DNA from: Alphaproteobacteria bacterium US3C007
GTDB taxonomy: Bacteria > Pseudomonadota > Alphaproteobacteria > Rhodobacterales > Rhodobacteraceae
Direction of reading: 5' to 3'
Assembly: GCA_034423775.1 (NCBI GenBank)
Contig: CP139918.1
Span: 1-64,000, forward strand
DNA length: 64,000 nt
Shown here: positions 2,986 to 57,515 of the stretch, piece after piece
Numbering within the stretch: the stretch's first letter is position 1
Layout: each line of letters opens with the position of its first letter
Translations under genes and position numbers: made by a program
Notes under the pieces: generated by a model
Database searches by the model: none
Told to the model about the DNA's origin: nothing
The model's input: the letters and a program-made list of their open reading frames with translations, nothing else

Positions 2986-3169
2986 ATACACTACCTTCAG
3001 CAATGTAATTTGGCGCAGGAATACAGGCAAAATTTCCTGTAATCCCTTCAGTTCCCACTTTTTCCATTTGAGCAGCTGCGCTTGCGCACTCTTCTTTGGT
3101 ATCCATCTCACCAACTGTTAGCAGTCCATTGATGGCCACAAAAACTAACATCCAAGAATATTCAAACAT
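2978..3169 (-). CDS. Small hypothetical protein, upstream member of an overlapping pair
   Basis: 63 residues with a hydrophobic N-terminus (MFEYSWMLVFVAINGLL) followed by a polar part with two cysteines (KEECASAAAQME and NFACIPAPNY). I chose 3169 because GGGAAG lies 5 bases before that ATG; a frame-compatible ATG at 3184 is less well placed. The hydrophobic start could be a signal or anchor, with the cysteines forming a disulfide outside the cytoplasm; this is inference. It overlaps the next gene by 8 bases. Confidence 0.5.
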   Translation of the reverse strand: MFEYSWMLVFVAINGLLTVGEMDTKEECASAAAQMEKVGTEGITGNFACIPAPNYIAEGSVYE

Positions 3170-3351
3170 TTCTACTTCCCACATAACGCCAGCGTCCTGC
3201 CTCTTTAGACAGACTGACAATCCCAGAGTAACGCGGTTCAGAAATATGTGAAGTCTTTAAACAAATGGTATCAAAAGTGTAACGTAATATGTAACGTGAC
3301 AAATAAATTTTACTATTAATGCAATTAAATCAATAATTTAATAGAGTTTTA

Positions 3352-3375
3352 TGGTGCCCCCACACGGAATAGAAC
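3352..3375 (-). other. Possible attachment-site scar resembling a tRNA 3' end
   Basis: Read on the minus strand, the bases resemble the T-loop, 3' T-stem, acceptor strand and CCA of a tRNA (TTCTATTCCGTGTGGG followed by GGCACCA). The upstream half does not pair with it as a T-stem, so this is not a complete tRNA. Integrases of the tyrosine family often leave such a 3'-end copy as an att site. The parent tRNA is not in the window, and the sequence does not match the adjacent tRNA-Ser, so this is inference. Confidence 0.3.
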
Positions 3376-3559
3376 TATCAAAAAACGACGATGTTCATTC
3401 AGTGCGACTGTAAGTTGCAGGCAGATACCAGTTACTTAAACAGCAGCGCGCCAATTCCCTCGTCTAGATTAGTCTTACATAGCAAATATGGGACTCCTAT
3501 CTGACAAAGCGGGGGGTACCCCCGGGGTATGGGCTGGTTACTGCGGAAATGGACGGGCA

Positions 3560-3613
3560 GTGCAGGAATTTTCAAACAAGTCCTGCACAAATGTGGACTA
3601 AAATGTGGACTAT
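3560..3613. repeat. 8-bp inverted repeat plus 12-bp tandem direct repeat next to tRNA-Ser
   Basis: GTGCAGGA at 3560-3567 is mirrored by TCCTGCAC at 3581-3588 with a 13-base spacer. Immediately after it, AAATGTGGACTA occurs twice in tandem (3589-3600 and 3601-3612). The block lies 55 bases from the 3' end of tRNA-Ser. Repeats of this size near a tRNA end resemble integrase or excisionase arm sites, but no integrase gene is present here. Confidence 0.5.
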
Positions 3614-3667
3614 AAGCGCACACAAACCCATAAGTTACATTAATATCAATAATTTACGGGAATTTTG

Positions 3668-3757
3668 TGGCGGAGACGAAGGGATTCGAACCCTCGAGAC
3701 CCTTCCGGGCCTACTCCCTTAGCAGGGGAGCGCCTTCGACCACTCGGCCACGTCTCC
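3668..3757 (-). tRNA. tRNA-Ser(GCU)
   Basis: A 90-base class II tRNA on the minus strand, CCA encoded (3668-3670). The acceptor stem GGAGACG/CGTCTCC closes with discriminator G. The anticodon stem CTCCC/GGGAG holds the loop CTGCTAA, giving anticodon GCU, which reads AGC and AGU serine codons. A long variable arm (about TAGGCCCGGAAGGGTCTC) and the T-loop GGTTCGAATCC confirm the serine class. Its 3' end faces the accessory segment, the usual geometry for element integration. Confidence 0.97.
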
Positions 3758-4085
3758 GCTGATGGGTCTACAATTTTATCGAATAGCAAAACAAGCGGAA
3801 AATATAAGAAACCCTCACTTTTTACGATTTGTTCGTTCCTACACCCTCAGCTGACGCGCAACGCCTGCACTTTTTCTGTGCATTTTTTAAGAAACTCCAT
3901 CCAAACAACCCGCCCAGACATAGGAAATAAATCGAATGTTTGACGCATCGTGCAAAGAGATCGTCTGTTGGCAAATAAAATAACAGCAAGCGTAGCGCTT
4001 ACTGCGTATCCGCTTTGTTTCCAAAGCACAAAAAAACTCTCAATGCCTTAACAGTATAGCGTTGAAAGAGAGCATCCTACGCAAT
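3758..4085. other. Intergenic, upstream side of tRNA-Ser
   Basis: No gene is supported. This stretch must hold the promoter of tRNA-Ser, which is transcribed leftward. Short frames on both strands (for example 3847-4029) lack ribosome-binding sites and protein-like composition. A small palindrome (AAGCGTAGCGCTTA, about 3989-4002) is the only structure I noticed. Confidence 0.5.
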
Positions 4086-4244
4086 TCAGGCATCATTTGA
4101 CCAGTCACCAAACCGCCATTGACATTTTTTTGTCCAACGACGCAACCCGGCAAGTCCCTCTTCCTTTAGCTCTTTGACAGAAGCTGACATAGAACGCACG
4201 ATTTCAATAAAAGGCTTTGCAGCGTTTAAAATATGGCCCAGCAT
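4086..4244 (-). CDS. Small hypothetical protein
   Basis: 52 codons from ATG at 4244, with AAGG 4 bases upstream, ending TGA at 4086. The predicted peptide is amphipathic and basic toward the end, with helix-forming composition (MLGHILNAAKPFIEIVRSMS, then KKCQWRFGDWSND). It follows ychF in the same direction after 55 bases and could be read through from it. I recognise no family. The length makes chance occurrence possible. Confidence 0.4.
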   Translation of the reverse strand: MLGHILNAAKPFIEIVRSMSASVKELKEEGLAGLRRWTKKCQWRFGDWSNDA

Positions 4245-4299
4245 GCAACCTTATTGCGCCACGCCCCGCAGGAAGAGCAAATTGCCTGTGCGCAGCGCC

Positions 4300-5397
4300 T
4301 TACGCGTTGAACAGAAAATGCAAAACATCGCCATCTTTCACGATGTAAGATTTACCTTCAACGCGCATTTTTCCGGCTTCCTTGGATTTCTGCTCTCCCT
4401 CAAGGGCAACATAATCCTCATAGGCAATAGTTTCGGCGCGGATAAAACCGCGCTCAAAATCGCCATGGATCACCCCCGCGGCTTGGGGGGCGTAGGTGCC
4501 GCCCTTTATCGTCCAGGCTCGCGCCTCTTTAGGGCCAACGGTGAAATAGGTTTCCAATTCCAAGAGCTTATAGCCGGCGCGGATCAAGCGATCTAATCCA
4601 GCCTCTTCTAAGCCCATCTCATCCAGAAACATGGCGGCTTCTTCAGGCTCTAATTGGCTGATCTCTTCTTCAATCTGGGCGCTGATAACGACGGTTCCCG
4701 CGCCCTGCGCAGCCGCCATATCATGCACCTGTTGCGAAAAAGTATTTCCCGTGCCCGCGGTCTCTTCATCCACATTGCACACAAATAGGATCGGCTTGCT
4801 GGTCAAAAGCTGCAGCATTTTCCAAGCTTTCAGATCCTCTTCCTCAACCTCAACGCTGCGCGCTGGTTTTCCTTCTTCAAGCACCACCAAAGCGGCTTTG
4901 AGCAAGCGCTCTTGTTGCACTGCCTCCTTATCACCGCCGCGCACTTTGCGGCTAAGGCCTTGCAGGCGCTTCTCAATGCTTTCAATATCGGCCAGCATCA
5001 GCTCGGTTTCGATCGTCTCGGCGTCAGATACCGGGTCGACGCGCCCATCAACATGGGTAACATCAGAATCCTCAAAACAGCGTAGCACATGAGCGATGGC
5101 ATCGACCTCGCGGATATTTGCCAGAAATTGGTTGCCAAGCCCTTCGCCTTTTGATGCGCCTTTGACCAACCCGGCAATGTCAACGAATGTCATACGCGTT
5201 GGGACGACTTGCTTTGAACTGGCGATTTTAGCCAAAGTATCAAGCCGTGCATCGGGTACGGCCACATCGCCCACATTCGGCTCAATGGTACAGAACGGAA
5301 AATTTGCCGCCTGCGCGGCTGCGGTTTTGGTTAACGCGTTAAACAAGGTGGATTTACCAACATTTGGCAACCCGACAATACCCATTTTAAACCCCAT
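4300..5397 (-). CDS. ychF: Redox-regulated ATPase YchF (Obg-like)
   Basis: 365 residues, the usual family length. The P-loop is GLPNVGKS at residues 9-16; G3 is DIAGL. In place of the GTP-specific NKxD there is NVDEE, the change that makes YchF/OLA1 prefer ATP. A coiled-coil insert (about 130-200, IESIEKRLQGLSRK) and a C-terminal TGS domain (about 280-365, YFTVGPKEARAWTI) follow. YchF associates with ribosomes and is linked to stress responses. ATG at 5397 has GGAG 8 bases upstream; the open frame continues to 5571 but that part overlaps the trpA leader. It is divergent from trpA. Confidence 0.97.
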   Translation of the reverse strand: MGFKMGIVGLPNVGKSTLFNALTKTAAAQAANFPFCTIEPNVGDVAVPDARLDTLAKIASSKQVVPTRMTFVDIAGLVKGASKGEGLGNQFLANIREVDAIAHVLRCFEDSDVTHVDGRVDPVSDAETIETELMLADIESIEKRLQGLSRKVRGGDKEAVQQERLLKAALVVLEEGKPARSVEVEEEDLKAWKMLQLLTSKPILFVCNVDEETAGTGNTFSQQVHDMAAAQGAGTVVISAQIEEEISQLEPEEAAMFLDEMGLEEAGLDRLIRAGYKLLELETYFTVGPKEARAWTIKGGTYAPQAAGVIHGDFERGFIRAETIAYEDYVALEGEQKSKEAGKMRVEGKSYIVKDGDVLHFLFNA

Positions 5398-5593
5398 GGC
5401 TCTGCTCCTTTTAGCGCTGTTGAGGGCTTCTAGTGACAGATCTGCCCGGAGGCAAGCGGCGAAGATGCAAAAGCCGCGCTGCGACTTACGGTTTCTTTTC
5501 CAGCACAAGCTTTTTCGTGAAATGTTCGCTTGGCATTGATTTTTCGTATTCGATTGGGCATGGGAGAGCATGACGAAGCGAAAGGTGCCTAAT

Positions 5594-6385
5594 ATGACTC
5601 GGATTGACGATAAATTTGCCGCATTAAAAGCAGATGGGAAAAAGGCATTTGTCTCCTATGTCATGGCTGGAGATCCAGATTACCACACCGCGCTTGAGCT
5701 GGTGAAAGGCCTTCCCGCAGCGGGTGTGGATATTATTGAACTGGGGCTCCCTTTCACCGATCCAATGGCAGACGGCAGCACGATTCAGTTGGCGGGGCAG
5801 CGCGCGCTTGAAGCCGGCATGACCTTGCAAAAAACGCTGACTTTAGCCGCCGAATTTCGCCACCAAGATAATGTAACGCCTATCGTTCTGATGGGCTATT
5901 ACAACCCGATCTATAATCATGGTGTGGACCAATTTCTGCTGGATGCAAAAACCGCTGGAATTGACGGGTTGATCATCGTGGATTTGCCCCCCGAAGAGGA
6001 TGATGAACTCTGCGTTCCGGCGCAAGCCGCGGGCTTAAATTTTATTCGCCTCGCAACGCCAACAACGGATGCCAAACGCTTGCCAAAGGTTCTTCAGAAT
6101 ACATCAGGCTTTGTGTATTATGTGTCGATCACTGGCATCACGGGCGCCGGCGAAGCGCAAGCCCAAAACGTGGGGCCTGAAGTAGCGCAAATTAAAGCAA
6201 ACACGGATCTGCCGGTTATCGTTGGATTTGGCATCAACACCCCTGAAGCGGCGCAAAGCATCGCTGAAATTGCCGATGGCGCCGTGGTAGGGTCCGCGAT
6301 TGTCAGTGAATTGGCCAATGGCAAACCAGTCGCAGAGGTGTTGGCGTTTGTCAAAACCCTCTCAGATGGGGCGCATCGCGGTTAA
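5594..6385 (+). CDS. trpA: Tryptophan synthase alpha chain
   Basis: 263 residues. TrpA splits indole-3-glycerol phosphate to indole and glyceraldehyde-3-phosphate, passing indole to TrpB. The catalytic residues fall at the same numbers as in E. coli: E49 (GVDIIELG) and D60 (DPMADGS). The phosphate-binding loop at the end of the barrel is visible (GFGINTPE, then GAVVGSAIV). Start 5594 has GAAAGG about 9 bases upstream; an ATG at 5570 is in frame but has no such site. trpB is not adjacent in the window. It runs convergently with the MaoC gene, 17 bases apart. Confidence 0.97.
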
Positions 6386-6402
6386 AGCTCTGTTGGCATG
6401 AC

Positions 6403-6840
6403 TTATGCGGCCAGAAGAAGCATTTGCGTGGCCAAAAAGCTGCTCACGATTTTTTGAGTTTGGTTTCGGATCACAAACCGAGTTTTGATAAATCCGCGAT
6501 CTGGCTTGCTGCGTGAGTGGCGCGCCTCTTCTACCGTAATCGCGCAGGTTAAAATATCGCCTGGATAGACCGGAATAAACCAGCGCACCTCATCCACCCC
6601 TGGCGACCCGATTGAACATTTTTCAAACAGCCTGGTGCGAAAAACCGCTTCAAATCCGATTAAAACGGTGTGCCAGCCGCTGGCGATGATCCCACCATAG
6701 GGGGACGCTTCGGCCTGCGCGTCATCGAGATGAAACGGCTGAGGATCCCAGTCTTGCGCGAAGGCAAGAATTTGCGCTTTCGAAATCTGTTTTGGTTCGG
6801 CTTCAAAATGAAACCCGACCACAAAATCTTCAAAATACAT
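6403..6840 (-). CDS. MaoC-family (R)-specific enoyl-CoA hydratase-like protein
   Basis: 145 residues forming one hotdog fold. The hydratase-2 signature is present (residues about 30-58: DWDPQPFHLDDAQAEAS, then YGGIIASGWH), with the Asp and His that hydrate trans-2-enoyl-CoA thioesters. The substrate is unknown; relatives serve fatty-acid, PHA or C5-acid metabolism. The rest of the fold is recognisable (VDEVRWFIPVYPGD). It is a stand-alone gene between trpA (convergent) and the lactate dehydrogenase gene (divergent, 88 bases away). Confidence 0.88.
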   Translation of the reverse strand: MYFEDFVVGFHFEAEPKQISKAQILAFAQDWDPQPFHLDDAQAEASPYGGIIASGWHTVLIGFEAVFRTRLFEKCSIGSPGVDEVRWFIPVYPGDILTCAITVEEARHSRSKPDRGFIKTRFVIRNQTQKIVSSFLATQMLLLAA

Positions 6841-6928
6841 CGCCCGCTCCTGCTCTGGTGTTTTATAGGTTAACGATGTTATATCGCCTGTAGATATGAC
6901 CGCGACAACCCAGTAAGGTAAAGCTTAA

Positions 6929-8092
6929 ATGCCTGTAATCACCAATATTTACGATCTTAAAAAAATCTATGCGCGCCGCGTGCCCCGCATGTTTTATGAT
7001 TACACGGAATCTGGAAGCTGGACAGAGCAAACCTTTGATGAAAATGTAACTGACTTTCAACAGCTTAAACTTCGCCAGCGGGTTGCAGTTGATATGACAG
7101 GGCGCAGCACCACCAGCACCATGGTGGGGCAGCAGGTTGCCATGCCCGTGGCTTTGGCCCCGATTGGCATGACTGGAATGCAATCTGCCGATGGCGAAAT
7201 AAAAGCCGCGCGGGCGGCCGAAAGCTTTGGCGTGCCCTATACCTTGTCCACAATGTCAATCTGTTCAATCGAGGATGTCGCGGCCCATACTGAGGCGCCT
7301 TTTTGGATGCAGCTTTACATGCTGAAGGACAATGATTTTAATGATCGCTTGGTCGAGCGCGCGCGCGCCGCAAATTGCTCTGCCTTGGTTCTCACGCTGG
7401 ATTTACAGATCTTGGGCCAGCGTCACAAAGACATTCGCAACGGGCTGTCGGCACCGCCCAAACTGACGCCCAAATCGATCGCCAATTTGGCCACAAAATG
7501 GGGCTGGGGCACAGAAATGCTGGGCACGAAGCGGCGGTTTTTCGGCAATATTGTCGGCCATGCCAAAGGCGTCAGCGACCCAAGCAGCCTATCCTCTTGG
7601 ACAGCCGAGCAATTTGATCCGGCGCTTGATTGGGACAAGGTGGCCCGATTAAAGGATGTCTGGGGCGGCAAAGTCATTTTAAAAGGCATTTTAGATCAAG
7701 ACGATGCCAAGATGGCCCTGAAAGTGGGCGCGGATGCGATTATCGTCTCCAACCATGGCGGGCGGCAATTGGATGGCGCGCTAAGCTCGATCAAAGCGCT
7801 TCCAGGCATTGTTGAAGCGGTGGGCGATAAGATTGAAGTGCATATGGATGGTGGCATCCGCTCTGGCCAAGATGTTTTGAAGGCCTTAGCGCTTGGGGCG
7901 AAAGGCACCTATATCGGGCGCTCGCATATTTATGGGCTTGGGGCAATGGGCCAAGAAGGCGTGCGCAAAAGCCTTGAGCTTATTCACAAAGAGCTCGATA
8001 TTTCCATGGCACTATGCGGCCATAAACGGGTTCAGGACCTAAATCGCAACACGTTGTTGATCCCGAAAGGGTTTGCGGGGGATTGGGAATAA
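6929..8092 (+). CDS. lldD: FMN-dependent alpha-hydroxy-acid dehydrogenase, L-lactate dehydrogenase-like
   Basis: 387 residues, the length of respiratory L-lactate dehydrogenases. FMN and substrate residues can be followed: YDYTESGSW near residue 23, PIGMTGM at 79-84, a QLYMLKD strand, LKGIL at 251-255, and the active-site motif SNHGGRQLDG with catalytic H276. A phosphate-binding end (DGGIRSGQDVLKALALGA, YIGRS) completes the TIM barrel. These enzymes oxidise L-lactate or a related 2-hydroxy acid at the membrane and pass electrons to quinone. Which 2-hydroxy acid is used cannot be told from sequence; no lactate permease or regulator is beside it. Confidence 0.9.
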   Translation: MPVITNIYDLKKIYARRVPRMFYDYTESGSWTEQTFDENVTDFQQLKLRQRVAVDMTGRSTTSTMVGQQVAMPVALAPIGMTGMQSADGEIKAARAAESFGVPYTLSTMSICSIEDVAAHTEAPFWMQLYMLKDNDFNDRLVERARAANCSALVLTLDLQILGQRHKDIRNGLSAPPKLTPKSIANLATKWGWGTEMLGTKRRFFGNIVGHAKGVSDPSSLSSWTAEQFDPALDWDKVARLKDVWGGKVILKGILDQDDAKMALKVGADAIIVSNHGGRQLDGALSSIKALPGIVEAVGDKIEVHMDGGIRSGQDVLKALALGAKGTYIGRSHIYGLGAMGQEGVRKSLELIHKELDISMALCGHKRVQDLNRNTLLIPKGFAGDWE

Positions 8093-40818: not shown

Positions 40819-41685
40819 CTATACTCGCCCATTGAGTTTTGGTTTCTCTAATAAGGTTTCTGGGACGGGTGGGCGCATGTTTAATGCGTGATGAGGTCTG
40901 ATCTGGTTGTATTGCCTGAGCCAAACATTGATAGCGACCTGGGCTTGCCGTGTGGTGTGGAACCATTCAGCGTTTAGCACTTCTTTTCGCAAGGTGCCGT
41001 TAAAGCGTTCGTTGTATCCATTTTCCCAAGGGCTGCCCGGATAGATTTGCATTGGTTTGATACCGATCCTCTTCAGCCAGTCCTGTAGATGCGTGGCAAT
41101 GAACTCGGGTCCGTTGTCAGAGCGAATAAACTCTGGCTTACCATGTTTAATCAGCAGCGGGTGCAGTGTCTCCAAAACGTCGTTCGCATTCATTTTGGAT
41201 CGCACTGCCACGTAGAGCGCTTCACGGGTATATTCATCTAGAACCGTGAGCATTTTATAGCTGCACCCATTGCTAAGCTTATCGTGCACAAAGTCGATCG
41301 CCCAAATATGGTTGGGATGTGTGGGCCGCAGCCTGATGATGGAGCTGTCTTTGTGATAAAGCCGTTTGCGCTTCTTGTGCCGGCGCGGCAGCTGTAAACC
41401 TTCTTCGTTCCATAAGCGCTCGATCCTCTTGTGGTTAACACGCCAGCCTTCCATGCGCAGCAGGGCTGTGACTTTCCTATAACCATACCACCCATACTGT
41501 TTGGCCAGCCGGATCATCGCCAAGCGTAGTTTGGTATCATCTACTTGTTTGGCTTGATAGCGCAGACTTGAGCGGGCTACATCCAGAACAGCGCAAGCAC
41601 GCCGCTCAGAAATATCCAGCTTTTGACGCGTATGAATAACAGCCTGACGAAGCTGAGCCCGCGTCAGGCCCGTGGCTTTAGATGA
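40819..41685 (-). CDS. IS3-family transposase OrfB, copy 2
   Basis: Same protein as the copy at 4-870: D77, D136 and E172 triad counted from TTG 41523, with the frame open upstream to 41685 and overlapping orfA in the -1 frame. One silent difference (41038) from copy 1. Expected to be active together with OrfA by frameshifting. Confidence 0.93.
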   Translation of the reverse strand, partial: SSKATGLTRAQLRQAVIHTRQKLDISERRACAVLDVARSSLRYQAKQVDDTKLRLAMIRLAKQYGWYGYRKVTALLRMEGWRVNHKRIERLWNEEGLQLPRRHKKRKRLYHKDSSIIRLRPTHPNHIWAIDFVHDKLSNGCSYKMLTVLDEYTREALYVAVRSKMNANDVLETLHPLLIKHGKPEFIRSDNGPEFIATHLQDWLKRIGIKPMQIYPGSPWENGYNERFNGTLRKEVLNAEWFHTTRQAQVAINVWLRQYNQIRPHHALNMRPPVPETLLEKPKLNGRV

Positions 41686-46813: not shown

Positions 46814-47458
46814 TTAATCTAGTGAAAATATTTCAGTAATATCGCGGTCAGTGAAGCTAACCGGATTATTTGACATACGTTCCATATTTGCCTGTTTGGC
46901 AAGAAAAGCCCGTTGCTCTACTGTCTCTGCTCCAATCATCGTAAGTTTATGTGGAACACCGAGACTTATTATAAAATTTTCCAAAATCGTGTCAGCCTGT
47001 TTAGCAACTTCAATATCTAAGGATTTCATCAATTTCTGCATGATTTCTTGTAAATGCTTGCTTCCTCTCGCATCGCTAACCTGCTCTCTATGGGCTGTGG
47101 CATGCATTTTAAATATTTTGGGCAGCGTTAACCAAACCGCATGCTCATGGGGTATCCCATGATGATTGGTAATCCCATAGGACCATGCATGCGCCGCGGT
47201 TGTTTTAGAAATATTGATTGCATTCCCTGCTCGATATGCTGCGTTTGACATGCCCTGTAACGTCAACGGATTTGCATCGCCTTCTACAACGCTCTTAAGG
47301 TTTTTTGCGCATAATTCAACGGCTTCAAATGCATAGCCGCGGCTTTGTTCTGTAGACCCTGCAGCCCAAGCGCTTTCTATCGATTGTGCCAATGCATCAA
47401 GACCGTTACATGCTTTCTGATATGGCAAACATGTGTCAATCAGGATTCCGTCATAAGT
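46814..47458 (-). pseudogene. C-terminal part of an iron-containing alcohol dehydrogenase, probably phosphonoacetaldehyde reductase
   Basis: About 214 codons are open, with TTG at 47428 the first start. The frame begins inside the protein (ILIDTCLPYQKACNGLDALA). Family members are about 380 residues; the N-terminal Rossmann part is missing. The iron-site histidines are in AAHAWSYGITNHHGIPHEHAVW and HATAHREQ. The segment AINISKTTAAHAWSYGITNH resembles the phosphonoacetaldehyde reductase (PhpC) group more than other Fe-ADHs. An in-frame TAA at 47459-47461 blocks extension, so the gene is truncated. Confidence 0.65.
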
Positions 47459-48812: not shown

Positions 48813-49988
48813 ATGATCACAATAATCGAAAAACATCTTGATAAGACTGGCGGACATTGGCTGTCGCAAATTAAGGCCGTAGAAAATCTTGCGAAAGATG
48901 AAAATTTGATCATTCTGACGGCATGCAATTCGAATGTACTTTTGCCACCCGCCTATATTATCAAACGTGTATTATCGACCCGACAAGAGCAAAAGAAAAA
49001 AAAATTAAAAGCACTCCAACATGATGTTTCTGTTCTCAAAAATATAATTCGCCAATCAAATGATAGCAAAAATTTTCGCATCCTAGTACCAACTGCTGAA
49101 AAACATGAGCTCCTAGTCTGCATGGACCTGCTTGCTCAAAATAGTACTAAGATAGTCTTCACTCTAAGAGTTCTTACTTATCAGTGCGTCAACAAACTCA
49201 CTAAATCTCAGCGAGCAAGCCTACAAAGCTATGTCGAGGCCGGATTAATCAGCATTGTCACCGAAACGGAAGCTTTATCCGAGCTATTACGAAGTAAATA
49301 CCAAATCAATGCGCAAAATAAATTTTTATTGCCCTGCTCTGTTGATCCGAAGGACAAAGCACCTCACCATGAGGCAAGCATTAGCTCACATTTTAAGATT
49401 GGCTATCTTGGAGGGGGACGAAAAGAACAAGGCTTAGACAAATTACCACAAATTTTTGCAGATTTAAAAAACTTGCTCAACAATTTCGATAAAGAGCTGT
49501 CATTTGAGTTAGTGATGCAAACGCCAAAGCACAAAACAAGATTACGAAAGGTAATTCATGATTATAAAATGCGTCGTAGTCTACGAAATACTGTAAAGCC
49601 TCAAAAAAAGATAAACCTCACTCTCCTGCCCGAAGAATTATCGACTGAGAAATTTGTCTCTACCATTCATTCGGTAGATTTTTTGCTTATTCCCTACAAC
49701 TTAAAAGCCTATCAGGCCCGCGGATCGGGTATCATCATCGATGGTGTACTGGCCGCAAAACCTATTGTTTATACAAATGGGATCGGGATGGAGGAGTTTC
49801 TAATCTTCGGCAATGCAGAGGCGGCTACAGATAGTGCTGATTTTGCGTTAAAAATCATGGCTATGGTGCAAAACTTTGATGCATATCGCGCCAAAACACT
49901 CCTTGCACGAGACGCTATATTAGCACAGATACAAAAGTCGGCAGATACTCTTGCAGAAGGCCGATCACCAAATTACGGTGATATGTAG
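48813..49988 (+). CDS. Glycosyltransferase, GT4-like (GT-B fold)
   Basis: 391 residues. The N-terminal half starts MITIIEKHLDKTGGHWLSQI with a donor/acceptor loop; the C-terminal half begins FKIGYLGGGRKEQGLDKLPQ, a typical GT-B second domain. The ending IIDGVLAAKPIVYTNGIGME carries a donor-binding glutamate in place of the E-x7-E motif. A basic middle segment (RKVIHDYKMRRSLRNTVKPQ) is unusual. It is the only plus-strand gene in this locus. Donor and acceptor are unknown. Confidence 0.75.
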   Translation: MITIIEKHLDKTGGHWLSQIKAVENLAKDENLIILTACNSNVLLPPAYIIKRVLSTRQEQKKKKLKALQHDVSVLKNIIRQSNDSKNFRILVPTAEKHELLVCMDLLAQNSTKIVFTLRVLTYQCVNKLTKSQRASLQSYVEAGLISIVTETEALSELLRSKYQINAQNKFLLPCSVDPKDKAPHHEASISSHFKIGYLGGGRKEQGLDKLPQIFADLKNLLNNFDKELSFELVMQTPKHKTRLRKVIHDYKMRRSLRNTVKPQKKINLTLLPEELSTEKFVSTIHSVDFLLIPYNLKAYQARGSGIIIDGVLAAKPIVYTNGIGMEEFLIFGNAEAATDSADFALKIMAMVQNFDAYRAKTLLARDAILAQIQKSADTLAEGRSPNYGDM

Positions 49989-50168: not shown

Positions 50169-51347
50169 TCACTCTTCGTCATAGGGACGAGCAACCGTCA
50201 GGAAGGCTTCGGTGACCCGCATAATATCTTCATCTGTAAGATTGTGATGATTCGGAAGGTAAATTCCAAAATCATGTATTTTATCGGCATTAGGTAATTC
50301 GGACATTCCATTCGACCGCAACCAAAATGGGTGTTTACCTATATTACCGCAAATTAATGGTCGGCACTCGATATTTTGTTGTTTCAAAAATTCAAATATT
50401 TCGAGACGGTTTGTTACCAAAGTTCCATAGGCAAAGGAGGAAAGCTTTTGGGTTGGTCCTGTCTGGCAAAAGAAATTTGGCAAGTTTGTTTTATAAAGTT
50501 CGAAATTTTGTTCTCGTTTTTCAATAATACCATTTAGTTTTTTTAATTGGGATCGGCCAATAAATGCTTGAAGATCTGTCGAGCGTAAATTGAAACCTGG
50601 ATAATAAAAAGTATACAAATTACGAAATGCATCAATGTCATTTTGCAATGTTAAAACTTTTCGTCGATCCTCTGATAGATCGCGTGACCACCCGTGTGAA
50701 CGTAGTGATAACATAATTTGATGCAAGTCAGAGTCATCTGTCACGACCATTCCGCCTTCGATAGTTGAAATGTGATGTCCATAATAAAATGAAAATGAGC
50801 CTGCCACTCCATGTGAGCCAAGCTTTTTTTCGCCATATGTGCTCCCTAGTGCCTCACAAGCATCTTCGAGCATTAGCACACCGTAACGATCGCAGATTTG
50901 TTTGATTTCCTTAAGGTGGTTGGCATGACCAAGTACATGAACAAGAATTAGAATGGATGGTTGCTGAGTCTTACAGAGAAACTCAAGGTGGTTTAAGTCC
51001 AACCCTAAATTTTTTGAGTCACAGTCGCAAAGCGATACATCAAAGCCAAATTGCATCAGTGGAGAAACCGTTGTTACCCAGCTAACCGCCGCCGCTATTG
51101 CCTTGTTATTTCGCAAAAGACCTGCCTCTTTGAGGGCAAATATCATAAGTAGATTAGATGATGAACCCGAGTTAGTGAAGATTGCATGCCGAGATCCCAT
51201 CCAATCTTTGAACTCTTCTTCAAACGCTATTGTTTGCTCAGATTTTGTGAGCCTGTTTCCATCCAGCATCCATTCCGATAATGCTTCTAATTCAGGCATT
51301 GTTATTGTGTCGTCAGCTAAAAGTACTTCGTTGCTTGCACTTAGCAT
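50169..51347 (-). CDS. colD: GDP-4-keto-6-deoxy-D-mannose 3-dehydratase (ColD type)
   Basis: 392 residues from ATG 51347, which overlaps the upstream stop (TGATG). The DegT/DnrJ fold is complete: GSSSNLLMIFALKEAG, EDACEALGSTYG (D162, PLP N1) and SFSFYYGHHISTIEGGM. The residue that is the PLP Lys in aminotransferases is His191 here, as in ColD and the E1/RfbH dehydratases. E1/RfbH enzymes are longer, with an iron-sulfur site not seen here. Because Gmd and ManC are in the same cluster, the substrate GDP-4-keto-6-deoxymannose is available. Expected product: GDP-4-keto-3,6-dideoxymannose. Confidence 0.87.
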   Translation of the reverse strand: MLSASNEVLLADDTITMPELEALSEWMLDGNRLTKSEQTIAFEEEFKDWMGSRHAIFTNSGSSSNLLMIFALKEAGLLRNNKAIAAAVSWVTTVSPLMQFGFDVSLCDCDSKNLGLDLNHLEFLCKTQQPSILILVHVLGHANHLKEIKQICDRYGVLMLEDACEALGSTYGEKKLGSHGVAGSFSFYYGHHISTIEGGMVVTDDSDLHQIMLSLRSHGWSRDLSEDRRKVLTLQNDIDAFRNLYTFYYPGFNLRSTDLQAFIGRSQLKKLNGIIEKREQNFELYKTNLPNFFCQTGPTQKLSSFAYGTLVTNRLEIFEFLKQQNIECRPLICGNIGKHPFWLRSNGMSELPNADKIHDFGIYLPNHHNLTDEDIMRVTEAFLTVARPYDEE

Positions 51348-52156
51348 CAATTGAACCCCGTTAATCTGCGTAAAATTCGTAAAGCTTTCATCTCGCGATA
51401 ATAACGCTTTACCTCTTTGTAAGCACGTTTAAGTTGCTCTTTTTTGCTCGCATCTTGATGTGCATCGATAGTGATCGAAGTATCATGCATCCTAAAAGTT
51501 GCAAGGGGCAATTTCACATAGCCAATATGTGTATATCGCAACATTGATAGTAGAGTAACTAAACAGTCTGGCCCCACCCCATGATATTCAGATTTGGAAA
51601 GAGGTAACCGCCCTTGATAGAGCGCATCCAAAAGGATTTGTTTTCTATAAACAGCAGCGCCAGGAGAAATCAAAGACCGTAGTATACGACGCTCAATTTT
51701 TCTTTTCGGATAGATACCAGTTGTTGGCAGCCAATCAGAGAACATTTTCTTATCGAGCCCACCTTTGTTTTCGTCAACAAGATTTACTGCGCTAAAGGCA
51801 AATCCAACTTTTTCATCAAAAACAGCCATGCTTTCTCTAATAAAGTTTACGTCTATCCAATCATCATCAAATTGTAGGTGAACAAAATCACCGTTGGCAT
51901 GAAGGACTCCATCAAGCCAACAAAAGTGAGGTCCAAAATCTCTGTCCCGTTTTATATAATAAACACGGTCTCCATAAGAAGACACAATTTCATCTGTATT
52001 ATCGGTAGAGCCATGATTTACAATGATGACCTCAACATCATGGCTCTGTGCAAGCGAGCTATCAATTGCTTTTTGCAAAATCTTTGCACGATTAAAAGTC
52101 GGAATGACAATGCTCACCAGCGATTTGTCGCCGCCTGTACGTTTAAGTTCAATCAA
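51347..52156 (-). CDS. Family 2 glycosyltransferase
   Basis: About 269 residues from a TTG at 52156, which has GGAG 7 bases upstream (52159 is also possible); the frame is open to 52201 inside the SDR gene. The GT-A core is VSIVIPTFNRAKILQKAIDS, the nucleotide motif VNHGSTDNTDEI, and DxD-type QFDDDWIDVN. It overlaps the SDR by 8 bases and abuts colD (TGATG), so it is translated with both and may transfer the 3,6-dideoxy sugar made by them. Confidence 0.87.
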   Translation of the reverse strand: MIELKRTGGDKSLVSIVIPTFNRAKILQKAIDSSLAQSHDVEVIIVNHGSTDNTDEIVSSYGDRVYYIKRDRDFGPHFCWLDGVLHANGDFVHLQFDDDWIDVNFIRESMAVFDEKVGFAFSAVNLVDENKGGLDKKMFSDWLPTTGIYPKRKIERRILRSLISPGAAVYRKQILLDALYQGRLPLSKSEYHGVGPDCLVTLLSMLRYTHIGYVKLPLATFRMHDTSITIDAHQDASKKEQLKRAYKEVKRYYREMKALRILRRLTGFN

Positions 52157-52952
52157 CAAGCTTCTCCATGAATGAGGCAAGAAGAGTCGTGTCCGCCACA
52201 AGATTGTCTCGCGCTCCCAAATGAGCGATATTCAAAGGCTCTGTCGAAAATGATTGAGCAAAATCACGGATCGTTGTAGGTTGGCCTGATCCAATATTTA
52301 TTATGCCGGCGTATTTGTTGATTGCCAAGTCTACGATAATCTTAGCAGCTTGCTGCGCAGTTAAAAAATCGCGAACACTGTCAGCGCCATATAAGTCGAA
52401 AGAACGATTGAAATCATGTGTAGCAAGACGCCTTAAAATACTAGGTCGTAGATATGACCCGGTTTGTTTAGGATCATGGATAGAAAACACTCGACCGATA
52501 CACAGGCAAATATCATATGCCAAACAAACATCTTTGGCGATAGTTTCGGAAACTAACTTAGTGCGCCCATAAAGAGAAATAGGCTCAGTTTTAGAATCTT
52601 CAGAAACTGTGTTAGTTTGCGGAGCATAGACATGCGCCGATGAACAGTAGAAAAGACTGGGCTTATGCTCAATTTCAGCGATTGCATTGAGAAGATTGAT
52701 CGTACCACCAACGTTCACTAAATATGCATTTGAGGGATCTTTTTTTACTTTGTCTACAGCTACTTTAGCAGCTAAATGAATAACCGTATCCAGTTTACCC
52801 GCTTCTTTGATGAAGGCCTTAGTATTGGCGCTATCTGTCAAATCGCCATAGAAGCAAACAATCTCGATAGATTCACCCCTTGACTGAAGTGCATTAACTA
52901 CATGACTTCCGACAATTCCACCACTTCCTGTTACCAAAACTCGTAGTACCAT
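52149..52952 (-). CDS. Extended SDR, NAD(P)-dependent sugar epimerase/reductase
   Basis: 267 residues, shorter than Fcl or Gmd. The cofactor loop is VTGSGGIVGSHVVNAL (about 7-22), followed by HLAAKVAVD, the active-site Ser in YCSSAHVYAP and the YGRTK of YxxxK. A C-terminal half with SVRDFLTAQQAAKIIVDLA and NIGSGQPTTIRDFA binds the sugar. Position between colD's partner glycosyltransferase and the locus edge suggests it reduces the 4-keto-3,6-dideoxy sugar (a ColC-like role), but it is not an obvious ColC. Confidence 0.8.
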   Translation of the reverse strand: MVLRVLVTGSGGIVGSHVVNALQSRGESIEIVCFYGDLTDSANTKAFIKEAGKLDTVIHLAAKVAVDKVKKDPSNAYLVNVGGTINLLNAIAEIEHKPSLFYCSSAHVYAPQTNTVSEDSKTEPISLYGRTKLVSETIAKDVCLAYDICLCIGRVFSIHDPKQTGSYLRPSILRRLATHDFNRSFDLYGADSVRDFLTAQQAAKIIVDLAINKYAGIINIGSGQPTTIRDFAQSFSTEPLNIAHLGARDNLVADTTLLASFMEKLVD

Positions 52953-53389
52953 CTATTCCTATAACCCTCGAACCGTTGGCATTATTTAATTAGAAGAAGT
53001 CAGCAAAAGTTACCAGAGTAGAATATTCAATTTGAACCTATGATCAGTAAAGAATTTTTTTATTGGCCGATTTGCTTTTGATCCTACAGCAGTGATCAAA
53101 CCTTTTACCGCCTAAGCAATAAAGTTGGGGGAATAAAGACGTAAGTAAAACGGGAAAGTCATCGTAATGTGAATAAATTTGAAAGATCGTCAATAAAGCT
53201 CAATGTCCACTAGATTTCCGAGTCATTAGTGCAACATCATGAGAAATCATTGTACGAACAGTGAAGAATTATTGTGGTACGGACTAAATGCAAGGCGCAT
53301 CATTAAACTAGGGTCTTATCCAATGTCCGTAATCTTTTTGAATTCACAAAAAACTTTACAATTGCCTATTGTACATTCGATGTTTTACT
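52953..53389. other. AT-rich intergenic spacer between two sugar-nucleotide gene groups
   Basis: Nothing protein-like is visible on either strand. It separates fcl-gmd-manC from the SDR-GT2-colD group. Both groups are read leftward, so a promoter for the SDR group probably lies here. Confidence 0.5.
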
Positions 53390-54343
53390 TCAGCACTCTC
53401 CAGTTAAAGAGGTAAAATTTTCATAAGTAATCTCCAATCCCATTTTCAAACTAATAGTATTGGAAAATCCCAACCTTTTTAAAAATGCTGTATCCAGCAG
53501 TTTTCTTGGCGGTCCATCTGGCTTGGTTCGATCAAACACAAGGGCTCCAGTGAACCCAATTACATCTTTCACTGTTTCAGCTAGCTCTCTAATCGTAACA
53601 TCTGTCCCAGTACCTACATTGATATGCGACAGCATTGGTTTCGTAGCGTCTAATAAAGTTTCCGTATCCAGGTAATGCACAAACAAACTCGCTTTAGCCA
53701 TGTCGTCTACATAAAGGAACTCTCGCCTTGGCCTTCCCGACCCCCATACCACTACTTCATCTAGGTTGTTTTCTTTCGCCTCGTGGAACCGTCTGATGAG
53801 TGCCGGAACAACATGACTATTCTCTGGATGATAGTTATCTCCTGGTCCAAATAGGTTCGTTGGCATCACAGAGCGATAATCCCTGCCATACTGACGATTG
53901 TAACTCTCGCACATCTTAATGCCTGCGATCTTCGCAATCGCATAAGGTTCATTTGTTGGCTCTAGTACGCCCGTAAGAAGCGTTTCCTCTTTCATCGGCT
54001 GTTCCGCCGCACGTGGATAAATACAAGATGAACCAAGGAAGAGTAGTTTTTGCACATCGTTTATATGCGCTGCATGGATGACATTGTTTTGGATCTGGAG
54101 GTTTTGGTAAATAAACTCTGCCGGATAGGTATTATTCGCGTGAATGCCTCCAACCTTAGCCGCGGCTAGAATAACTTCATCAGGCTTTTCTGAGTTCATA
54201 AACTCATGAACTGCTGGCTGATCACATAAATCTAGCTCATCGCGCGCGCGCGTGATGATTTCAACATCTGCTTGCTTTTGTAATTGTCGGCATATTGCAC
54301 TGCCAACCATACCCCTGTGACCTGCTACAAAGATCTTTTTCAT
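53390..54343 (-). CDS. fcl: GDP-L-fucose synthase
   Basis: 317 residues from ATG 54343, which has GAGG 7 bases upstream. Fcl (WcaG) epimerises and reduces GDP-4-keto-6-deoxymannose to GDP-L-fucose. Signatures: [12 protein letters not shown] (NADP loop, residues about 5-16), [26 protein letters not shown] and the YAIAK catalytic Tyr/Lys. It is directly after gmd (9 bases), completing GDP-L-fucose synthesis. Confidence 0.95.
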
Positions 54344-54352
54344 CACGTAGCC

Positions 54353-55471
54353 TCAGTTTTCGATCGATACAGGAAGTTCAAGATCATGCTCTTTCAGAAG
54401 CGCAAGACGCCGCGCCGCCTTATGGTCTTCTGCAACCATTTCTTTACACATTTCTTGCGCAGTTATCTCAGGCTCCCACCCCAATTCAGCTTTTGCCTTA
54501 GATGGATCTCCCAAAAGGGTCTCAACTTCTGCAGGCCTGAAGTAACGCGGGTCAATTCTGACAATTACTTGTCCGACTGAGATCTTCGGTGCAAGATCGC
54601 CTGAGATGCCAGTGACGACACCAACCTCATCTAAACCTGTCCCTTTGAACTCTATATCAATACCAAGTGCATTTGCTGACCAAGTAATAAATTCTCGCAC
54701 CGAATATTGCTTGCCTGTCGCAATTACATAATCTTTGGCTTCATCTTGCTGCAGCATCATCCATTGCATACGGACATAATCCTTTGCGTGTCCCCAGTCG
54801 CGCAATGCATCAATGTTTCCCATATGCAGGCAGCTTTCTAGCCCAATTGCAATATTGGCTAATCCCCGCGTAATTTTACGCGTAACAAAAGTTTCGCCTC
54901 TGCGGGGGCTTTCGTGATTAAATAAGATACCGTTGCAAGCATACATTCCATATGCCTCTCGGTAGTTTACACAGATCCAATAGGAATACAGTTTCGCAAC
55001 CGCATATGGCGAACGCGGATGAAAAGGCGTCGTTTCTTTTTGCGGTGTTTCTTGAACTAATCCATAGAGCTCAGACGTGGAAGCTTGGTAGAATTTTGTT
55101 TTCTGCTCCAAACCTAAAAACCTAATGGCCTCAAGCATACGCAACGTGCCAACGCCATCTACATCAGCAGTATATTCAGGGCTTTCAAAGCTTACAGCAA
55201 CATGGGACTGAGCACCCAAGTTATAGACCTCATCAGGCTCAATATCGCGAAGGATACGCGTTAAATTTGAAGTGTCAGACAAATCGCCGTAGTGAAGTTT
55301 GAAGCGGCTATTCTCTACGTGTGGGTCTTGGTAAATATGATCTATGCGCTGTGTATTGAAGAGAGAAGAGCGTCGCTTGATGCCATGTACTTCATAGCCT
55401 TTCTCGAGCAGAAATTCCGCAAGATAAGAGCCGTCTTGGCCAGTAATACCTGTAATTAATGCGCGCTTCAT
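54353..55471 (-). CDS. gmd: GDP-mannose 4,6-dehydratase
   Basis: 372 residues. Gmd converts GDP-mannose to GDP-4-keto-6-deoxymannose, the branch point for L-fucose and for 3,6-dideoxy sugars. The Rossmann loop is [16 protein letters not shown] (about 6-21), followed by [15 protein letters not shown], the active site [16 protein letters not shown] and the YAVAKLY catalytic Tyr/Lys. It is 12 bases after manC in the same direction. Confidence 0.97.
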
Positions 55472-55483
55472 TTTATGTCTCTT

Positions 55484-56914
55484 CTAATTACGAGCGTATA
55501 CATCTTCATATCGAATAATGTCATCCTCGCCTAAGTAAGTTCCAATTTGTACTTCGATTAGGACCATTGGAAGCTTGCTGGGGTTTTCCATGCGGTGTTT
55601 GGCACCTAGTGGCACATAGACTGATTGGCCTTCGCTCACAAGTTTGACCTCATCGTCAATTGTGACTTTTGCCGTTCCTTCAACAACAATCCAATGCTCT
55701 GACCGATGCTTGTGGCTCTGTAAGCTCAGCGCCGCTCTAGGCTTTACACAAATGCGCTTAACCTGAAAACGCTCACCTAAAGCCAGGCTCTCAAACCAGC
55801 CCCATGGGCGATGATCCTTCGGGAATATTTCTGCTTGAGCGATGTCTTTTGACTTAAGCAATCCTACAGCTTTTTTAACATCTTGCGCACGCTCTTTGGG
55901 AGCGACAAGCACCGCATCGGGCATAGCGATTGCCATAATGTCATTCAATCCTAGGCCAACCACCTGCTGGCTACCGCTCTCAGAGCGCAGTAAGCTATTC
56001 GAGCATTCAATCGCATGTGCAGTTTCAGAGGTAACATTGCCTGATGTGTCTGGCTCACTCTCTAACCAGACTGCATCCCAGCCTCCCAGATCAGACCATT
56101 TTGAAGCATAAGGAACTGCAACGAGGTTCTGCGCTTTCTCCATAATGGCATAATCGATACTGATACCCTCGATCTTGGACCAAGGCTCTGCAGCCAGGCG
56201 TAAAAAACCTAAGTCTGCTGAGGCTTCATTTATGGATTGTGAAACCAGATCTAAAGCTTCTGGCGTGTAGGTCCTAAAGGCATCAATCATATCCTGCGCA
56301 CGGAATAAAAAGATCCCAGCATTCCAAAGATAGTTACCAGCCTCCACCATCTGCTTCGCATTCTGCAAATTAGGTTTTTCGACAAAGGTTTTGAGATCAG
56401 ATGAACCGTAATCATCAAGGGGATCTATCGAGAGTTCTAAATATCCATATCCTGTCTCTGGGTGTGTTGGCTTAATGCCAAATGTAACCATCTTTCGATT
56501 TTGGGCATGTGTTAAACCCACCTTAATTGATTCATGGAAGTCATTCGTGTCAGGTATCACGTGATCAGATGGTGCAACCAGTAAGACGGCTTTTTCATCT
56601 CTGGAAAGCGCGAAAATGCTGGCTGCTAATATGGCAGCAGCAGTATTTTTTGGTTCTGGCTCAATTAAAATGGGGCCGGGGTCAATACCAATTTCTTGTA
56701 ATTGATCGCCAATAATGAAACGGAGGTCAGAGTGCGTAAGTGTAATGTGCGGAGCAAAATCTAGTGTGCTGGAGGATGTCAGTCGCTGTGCACTCGATTG
56801 AAACAGTGTCTTATCTCCAATAAGCTTCGAGAACTGCTTTGGGTATGATTTCCGTGATAATGGCCAAAGGCGCGTTCCAGACCCACCAGCGAGTAAAACG
56901 GGATATATTGCCAC
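55484..56914 (-). CDS. manC: Mannose-1-phosphate guanylyltransferase / mannose-6-phosphate isomerase
   Basis: About 476 residues from GTG 56914 (AAGG 8 bases upstream); the frame continues to a TTG at 56932. The N-terminal guanylyltransferase has YPVLLAGGSGTRLWPLSRKS and FVEKPNLQNAKQMV. The C-terminal type II isomerase cupin (about 345-476) has HRPWGWFESL, QSHKHRSEHWIVVEGTAKV and the metal His/Glu. It makes GDP-mannose, the precursor for Gmd. It is the first gene of manC-gmd-fcl. Confidence 0.96.
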   Translation of the reverse strand: MAIYPVLLAGGSGTRLWPLSRKSYPKQFSKLIGDKTLFQSSAQRLTSSSTLDFAPHITLTHSDLRFIIGDQLQEIGIDPGPILIEPEPKNTAAAILAASIFALSRDEKAVLLVAPSDHVIPDTNDFHESIKVGLTHAQNRKMVTFGIKPTHPETGYGYLELSIDPLDDYGSSDLKTFVEKPNLQNAKQMVEAGNYLWNAGIFLFRAQDMIDAFRTYTPEALDLVSQSINEASADLGFLRLAAEPWSKIEGISIDYAIMEKAQNLVAVPYASKWSDLGGWDAVWLESEPDTSGNVTSETAHAIECSNSLLRSESGSQQVVGLGLNDIMAIAMPDAVLVAPKERAQDVKKAVGLLKSKDIAQAEIFPKDHRPWGWFESLALGERFQVKRICVKPRAALSLQSHKHRSEHWIVVEGTAKVTIDDEVKLVSEGQSVYVPLGAKHRMENPSKLPMVLIEVQIGTYLGEDDIIRYEDVYARN

Positions 56915-57515
56915 AAAGATCACCTTTTCCAAATAGGGAACCGTTATCTCTTGTATTCATTCTTGTCTAGTTTTGATCGTTTCGGAGAGCTTATGTAAAT
57001 AACTAAAATATTTTCTATTCAACTTAAGGAAATTTAAAATTCTTCAAAATTGACCTTTTCGCTTATCCGAACTCTCAATTCCATGGTATGCTTTGTATAA
57101 CCGAGAGTTGCGCCTGTGAGCAACTCCAATTGACTAGTTCCAATGCTATATTTGAGCAACAGACGCCTAGATGGCGAAAATGCGAATGAACCCGCGAGGC
57201 ATTGTAACAAATTTAAAACAAACTCAGGTTTTGATAGGGAACGCGTATGCTTCATAAATAGAAATTCAACGACGTAGTTTATACGTGCACACTCATTAGA
57301 CTAAGCACAAGCGGTATGGTAGACTTGGCGTTGGTTAATAATCTAATGATCAGGTACTAAACGCACTTTTATGAAAAATAGTTAAAAGGTAAGCTGTCGA
57401 GATGATAAATTTCAATCGCCCGCCTCCTTAATCAAAGAAAATTCAAAGAACGATTTGCGAAGCTGTTCCAGATAAGGAGCGCCTCGCAGCTTGATAAAAT
57501 CCACTCGGATTTTCT
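56915..57515. other. AT-rich intergenic region at the edge of the polysaccharide locus
   Basis: No convincing gene. A 73-codon minus-strand frame (57034-57255) has no good ribosome-binding site and no recognised family. The stretch marks the change from the AT-rich polysaccharide locus to core genes, and should hold the manC promoter near 56950. Confidence 0.5.

Follow-up and report, generated by a model that had tools for sequence, protein, structure and literature searches.

A marine-type alphaproteobacterial gene cassette predicted to make a GDP-linked 3,6-dideoxyhexose, probably other than colitose

Introduction

Which sugar does a bacterium make when a dehydratase resembling ColD, the colitose enzyme, lies close to genes for the synthesis of guanosine diphosphate (GDP)-linked fucose, and which enzymes finish the sugar? 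The question is raised by positions 50169 to 56932 of a 64,000-nucleotide stretch, here called the window, of Alphaproteobacteria bacterium US3C007 (Rhodobacteraceae; GCA_034423775.1, contig CP139918.1), where a preliminary description had placed a ColD-type dehydratase in a pathway to a sugar such as colitose, together with L-fucose. 3,6-Dideoxyhexoses terminate O-antigens and other surface glycans, where they are strong recognition epitopes, and the surface sugars of marine bacteria are targets of grazers and phages. We consider it rather probable that a self-contained cassette of three genes, encoding a short-chain dehydrogenase/reductase (SDR), a family 2 glycosyltransferase (GT2), and the dehydratase, is fed by manC and gmd and makes and transfers a GDP-3,6-dideoxyhexose that is probably not colitose. 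The genes lie on the minus strand, read from 56932 down to 50169 in the order manC, gmd, fcl, a 437 bp gap, SDR, GT2, and dehydratase:

50169..51347, minus strand: His-type DegT-fold protein, 392 amino acids from ATG, predicted pyridoxamine 5'-phosphate (PMP)-dependent GDP-4-keto-6-deoxymannose 3-dehydratase
51347..52201, minus strand: GT2 glycosyltransferase, predicted dideoxyhexosyltransferase of the cassette (PF00535; same position in 7/7 cassette loci)
52149..52952, minus strand: short extended SDR, 267 amino acids, predicted C4-ketoreductase in place of ColC (active-site residues and profile match)
52953..53389, no strand: 437 bp gap between fcl and the SDR gene, without an open reading frame (ORF) of 100 amino acids
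53390..54346, minus strand: fcl, predicted GDP-L-fucose synthase (NF047922, 513.1 bits, cut-off 500; Cys and His of Fcl kept)
54353..55471, minus strand: gmd, GDP-mannose 4,6-dehydratase, predicted source of GDP-4-keto-6-deoxymannose (TIGR01472, 580.6 bits, cut-off 415)
55484..56932, minus strand: manC, bifunctional mannose-1-phosphate guanylyltransferase/mannose-6-phosphate isomerase (TIGR01479, 542.5 bits, cut-off 372.95)

The earlier statement that manC, gmd, and fcl lie beside the DegT-fold gene on one strand is right as to the strand, and all three score above their NCBIfam cut-offs, but the 437 bp gap and the SDR and GT2 genes, both of which had been missed, lie in between. The three cassette genes are tightly packed, with the stop codon of the GT2 gene overlapping the ATG of the dehydratase gene by one base. 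A TTG at 51350 is also open as a start of the latter, giving 50169-51350(-), and the true start of the GT2 gene is uncertain, its TTG start as listed overlapping the SDR gene.

The dehydratase and its active site

The dehydratase matches the DegT family (PF01041) with 242.2 bits and carries the motif GHHISTIEGG, in which H191 (ATG numbering) is the first His of the pair. The claim that this residue occupies the position of the lysine is borne out by alignment to structures of ColD and E1. Specifically, the aligned residue is His in ColD (2gms), Asn in 3b8x, and Lys in 2r0t, and it corresponds to E1 residue 220, which is His in 3bcx and Lys in 3bb8. The position is that of the catalytic His of ColD and E1 and of the Lys of aminotransferases, and it is the residue exchanged in the ColD and E1 variants. 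Among 52 aligned DegT-family rows, two of which are the window itself, the His pair is found in 41 and Lys at its first position in 11. When ranked against the PDB, the protein is closest to ColD (214.4 bits), followed by E1 (154.7), by 9wvy, which is another putative 3-dehydratase (116.5), and only then by aminotransferases (PerA, 110.2).

As set out in the part of PMC8987622 that deals with these enzymes, His in place of Lys is the mark of the 3-dehydratases, of which E1 and SpnQ contain a [2Fe-2S] cluster that is absent from ColD, and ColD releases its product by hydrolysis and recovers PMP via glutamate. The window protein fits on the ColD side of these traits. It has no Cys in residues 164-294, where Salmonella RfbH has four at 251-261, and it scores 216.9 bits on NF011936 (E1/RfbH) against a cut-off of 423, with ColD itself at 262.8. 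It shares with ColD of E. coli O55 the DegT fold family, the His, the lack of iron-sulphur cysteines, and the HGW[ST]R and R-x(4)-GN stretches, whereas it differs in its sequence (33% identity), its place outside the ColD clade, and its partner, which is not ColC. With E1/RfbH, the 3-dehydratase of cytidine diphosphate (CDP)-4-keto-6-deoxyglucose, it has the fold family and the His in common but not the cysteine cluster. Taking sequence, motifs, and trees together, we assign the protein as a predicted PMP-dependent sugar 3-dehydratase without the iron-sulphur cysteines of E1.

Three trees were built, of 53, 40, and 39 rows, with four cassette proteins in the first and seven in the others. In each the dehydratase belongs to a His-type group (support 100/99, 100/100, and 100/100, respectively) that excludes both PerA and ArnB. 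The cassette dehydratases form a single clade (100/100) on a long branch, and this falls outside a 22- or 29-row clade that contains ColD (100/98 or 100/99). When a cyanophage row is included it becomes the sister of the cassette clade (100/96, 98/98), with a warning from the tool that long branches are meeting, and when it is removed the fork uniting the cassette and ColD clades has a support of 94/95. The label "ColD-type" suits the predicted mechanism but probably not the position in the trees.

The same fold family would be expected of a dead enzyme or of a perosamine-type aminotransferase whose lysine has been lost, and annotation pipelines do label the His-type relatives as aminotransferases. 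However, the approximately unbiased (AU) test rejects placing the dehydratase next to PerA (p 0.00019) and grouping it with ArnB and two Lys-type relatives, L005 and L008 (p 7e-5), so that the protein was not found among the perosamine-type aminotransferases, the placement that had been named as fatal to the original idea. Moreover, the His pair is conserved in the dehydratases of all seven known cassette loci, which are 68-98% identical to the window protein, as is the gene order around them. We regard a lysine-less aminotransferase or a dead enzyme as very improbable. A true perosamine-type aminotransferase was ruled out by the absent Schiff-base Lys and the same two AU tests. His-type proteins are not very rare: 37 of 385 genomes in a class-wide sample, the window's own included, match the dehydratase at E <= 1e-40, and the His pair is present at each of the 30 loci that were obtained from these 37 genomes.

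A further, separate clade of His-type dehydratases (L035-L060, e.g. L046, L051, and L058) is common in alphaproteobacteria. In this group IG[FY]R[IVM]ITGG replaces the ECRP...GN stretch, and for most members a full match to Gmd or ColC is lacking within ~1.5 kb.

The cassette and its reductase

A scan of genome contigs for bearers of the cassette gave L011 (98%), L012 from Ascidiaceihabitans (79%), and L013 from Pseudooceanicola (71%). Searching 394 sampled genomes of the family to which L012 belongs at E <= 1e-60 then yielded 16 matches. Five were of the cassette type, two of them in the L011 and L012 genomes already named, and 11 stood at 33-40%; with the window included, this brings the cassette loci to seven. 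The order SDR-GT2-dehydratase is constant in all seven; the cassette genes of L012 and L013 overlap each other by 1-14 bases, and L011 has a gap similar to that between fcl and the SDR gene. In E. coli O55 the Fcl-like ColC neighbours ColD, and the other 11 matches of the family sample all have a ColC-like neighbour (44-53% identity to ColC of O55). By contrast, no Fcl-like ColC, meaning a protein that matches ColC better than Fcl, was found at any of the seven cassette loci. The SDR that stands there is rare, with a single match at E <= 1e-25 among the 385 class-wide genomes, that of the window's own genome.

The cassette SDR has the extended SDR fold and the S/T-Y-K residues in common with ColC (GDP-L-colitose synthase) and Fcl, in the window as S105, Y128, and K132, with Thr replacing Ser in L013. 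It differs from them in being shorter, in its low score against Fcl (42 bits, compared with 304 for ColC), and in lacking their Cys and His. All seven cassette SDRs have an invariant His107 at the Cys position, and the His position is occupied by Tyr in six and by Phe in one. A PDB search with a profile of the seven members places GDP-6-deoxy-D-mannose reductase (Rmd, 6x3b) first with 86.6 bits. In Rmd, too, the Cys and His of Fcl are replaced, by Asp and Phe, although the score of ~87 bits is a modest one and His107 of the SDR faces the Asp of Rmd. In a test set of 13 SDRs the same profile gave 98.8 bits for an SDR of Haladaptatus, 85.5 for Rmd, 33.2 for Fcl of the window, and 31.2 for ColC, and in a fold search with the SDR many SDRs were tied. 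We infer that the cassette SDR is a C4-reductase without C5 epimerisation of the Fcl/ColC type. The Haladaptatus SDR, the highest of the 13, comes from an archaeal plasmid (L030, locus 3977-7107) with the order gmd, SDR, His-type dehydratase, and in it, too, the Fcl/ColC Cys and His are missing.

The neighbouring fcl appears to serve another purpose. Its 513.1 bits on NF047922 compare with 304.4 for ColC of O55 and 291.5-310.2 for three ColC-like plasmid proteins, although fcl of L012 lies marginally below the cut-off (495.9 vs 500), and the window protein retains the Cys and His of Fcl. Most likely it makes GDP-L-fucose, which agrees with the earlier "together with L-fucose". The sister species G002, of the same genus, has lost the cassette and kept manC, gmd, and fcl, and the fucose genes therefore persist there without it. 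Window positions 50253-52639 are exchanged in G002 for ~3.0 kb (L022, 9232-12649) that encode an insertion sequence (IS) integrase, an FkbM-type methyltransferase, and a 299 amino acid ORF without a Pfam match. Of the GT2 gene nothing is left, and the edges still encode 104 SDR residues (95% identical) and 27 dehydratase residues (89%).

These results bear directly on colitose. A divergent ColD could work with the cassette SDR, using its His/Tyr pair, or with the neighbouring Fcl, either of which would epimerise C5 and reduce C4 to give GDP-L-colitose. This would be in keeping with a dehydratase that is mechanistically like ColD, with the adjacent Fcl in the window, L011, L012, and L082, with the invariant His and predominant Tyr of the SDR, and with the AU test, which does not reject a union with the ColD/ColC group (p 0.076). 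Against it stand the ColC-like protein at 0/7 cassette loci compared with 11/11 ColD-type loci, the window fcl scoring as a fucose synthase, the lack of any Fcl/ColC match in the 19 kb around L013, L081, and L083, and the retention of manC-gmd-fcl in G002 after loss of the cassette. Because the cassette SDR does not belong to the Fcl/ColC type, L-colitose is probably not what the pathway yields, and we now think a colitose pathway unlikely; the earlier suggestion of this sugar as the likely product is not supported.

Substrate supply

The Gmd enzyme, which would provide GDP-4-keto-6-deoxymannose, is found above its cut-off in six of the seven cassette genomes. Its gene lies in the examined flanks of the window, L011, L012, and L083, a piece of it in that of L082, and it was not seen within 19 kb around L013 and L081. 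CDP-glucose 4,6-dehydratase is above its cut-off in none of the seven genomes, a further difference from the setting of E1/RfbH. Since Gmd supply is present and the CDP-glucose enzyme is absent, GDP-4-keto-6-deoxymannose is the favoured substrate of the dehydratase. An E1-type CDP route was ruled out by the latter absence and by the missing E1 cysteines.

The enzyme could nevertheless act on another nucleotide sugar, such as a 4-keto-6-deoxyhexose linked to deoxythymidine diphosphate (dTDP) or another carrier, or a 4-keto-6-deoxyheptose, with gmd, fcl, and manC as unrelated neighbours. The absence of gmd from the 19 kb examined at L013 and L081 would agree with this, as would the dTDP-glucose 4,6-dehydratase RmlB, taken up below, and C3-dehydratases of C. 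jejuni that are 62-67% identical to ColD use a heptose, according to the section of PMC10440746 on these enzymes. The distribution of Gmd given above argues otherwise, as does the lack of a CDP route in any of the genomes, and genome G042 has Gmd above the cut-off and neither RmlB nor the CDP enzyme. We judge a different nucleotide sugar to be improbable.

Proposed pathway and product

The protein family, the His for Lys, the absent E1 cysteine cluster, and the conserved gene order can be read from the sequences themselves, and from them we propose a pathway whose substrate, individual reactions, product, and transfer step are predictions. Gmd would form GDP-4-keto-6-deoxymannose. The dehydratase would hold PMP without a Schiff base to lysine, and H191 would take up a proton so that the C3 hydroxyl leaves. 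The bound product would be hydrolysed to GDP-4-keto-3,6-dideoxymannose and PMP restored by glutamate, such that no iron-sulphur reductase partner is needed. The cassette SDR would then reduce the C4 ketone, and the GT2 enzyme would transfer the 3,6-dideoxyhexose onto a cell-surface glycan, while fcl would separately supply GDP-L-fucose. A D-series sugar, either 3,6-dideoxy-D-arabino-hexose or its D-lyxo counterpart, is the favoured product, although the His/Tyr pair of the SDR leaves room for other epimerase chemistry and the D configuration is for this reason favoured rather than settled.

Several observations weigh against the proposed pathway. The dehydratase is only 33% identical to ColD, and its AlphaFold model failed (mean predicted local distance difference test score 43.8). 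Three joins of the cassette were not rejected by the AU test: one with RfbH (p 0.142), one with the ColD/ColC group (p 0.076, at the 0.05 level), and one with the four aminotransferases as a set, equivalent to the deepest position within the His-type group (p 0.147). Given the rejections and non-rejections together, it is firm that the dehydratase is not an aminotransferase and only likely that it is not a ColD proper. The lead of Rmd in the SDR profile search is narrow (5.5 bits, the next three matches reaching 80.2-81.1), and with the window SDR as a single query Rmd comes seventh in the PDB (51.1 bits vs 61.5 for the best match). C5 epimerisation by another residue pair, the invariant His with mostly Tyr, is possible. 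As to the substrate, genome G648 has only a broken piece of gmd beside its cassette and no other above the cut-off, and RmlB is above its cut-off in five of the seven genomes, in which a dTDP-linked substrate is therefore possible. The gmd piece of G648 (G648:C2:582039-582443) contains stop codons and adjoins the cassette.

The colitose route is described in PMC8987622, in its treatment of these pathways, as Gmd, ColD, and ColC, and tyvelose, paratose, and abequose as arising by CDP routes. In C. jejuni the GDP-3,6-dideoxyheptoses arise through a C3-dehydratase, C4-reductases, and a C5-epimerase; when the epimerase was omitted in vitro the C4-reductases gave GDP-3,6-dideoxy-D-arabino- and D-lyxo-heptose, as reported in PMC10440746. 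Owing to these products formed without an epimerase, the chemistry proposed here has a precedent. The HS:5/HS:11 systems resemble the cassette in having a GDP-linked C3-dehydratase with a separate C4-reductase, and differ in the heptose substrate, the separate C5-epimerase, and the closeness of their dehydratases to ColD (same source). What is new here is the gene set, the linkage of reductase, transferase, and dehydratase, and the swap of ColC.

More tentatively, and with real doubt on our part, we suggest that the cassette represents a mobile GDP-linked route to D-series 3,6-dideoxyhexoses, in which a deep-branching ColD-like dehydratase is joined by its own Rmd-like C4-reductase and glycosyltransferase. 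The sugar would be a GDP-activated form of a tyvelose-type sugar, or its C4 epimer, until now known from CDP pathways, and which dideoxyhexose marine alphaproteobacteria display would depend on whether they use ColC or the SDR. The term "GDP-tyvelose" was not found in the open-access literature searched, subscription journals not being covered, nor was "dideoxyhexose" together with "Roseobacter" in open-access literature. If the suggestion is true, a single gene exchange that puts an Rmd-like SDR in the place of ColC determines which dideoxyhexose is made from the same intermediate, and does so in common marine bacteria of the Rhodobacterales type. The cassette would then provide a compact set of enzymes leading to a GDP-activated 3,6-dideoxyhexose different from colitose, and would serve as a marker that separates true colitose loci from look-alikes annotated "DegT aminotransferase".

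Related and neighbouring loci

In Synechococcus phage ACG-2014f (KJ019148; L029, locus 3044-6161), gmd, an Fcl/ColC-like gene, and a His-type dehydratase gene annotated "hypothetical protein" form a run that is a predicted phage-borne 3,6-dideoxyhexose module; the Fcl/ColC-like product scores 420 bits on NF047922 (cut-off 500).

Beyond the cassette, window positions 48813-49988 (+) encode a 391 amino acid protein that matches nothing in Pfam or NCBIfam; a 29% relative, also without a Pfam match, is encoded directly downstream of the L012 dehydratase. Positions 46814-47428 (-) contain only the C-terminal part of an iron-containing alcohol dehydrogenase (PF25137), which is still an ORF in G002 and is present as shorter pieces in L011. 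Two copies of the same 234 amino acid IS-type integrase-core transposase are found at 4-708 and 40819-41523 (-).

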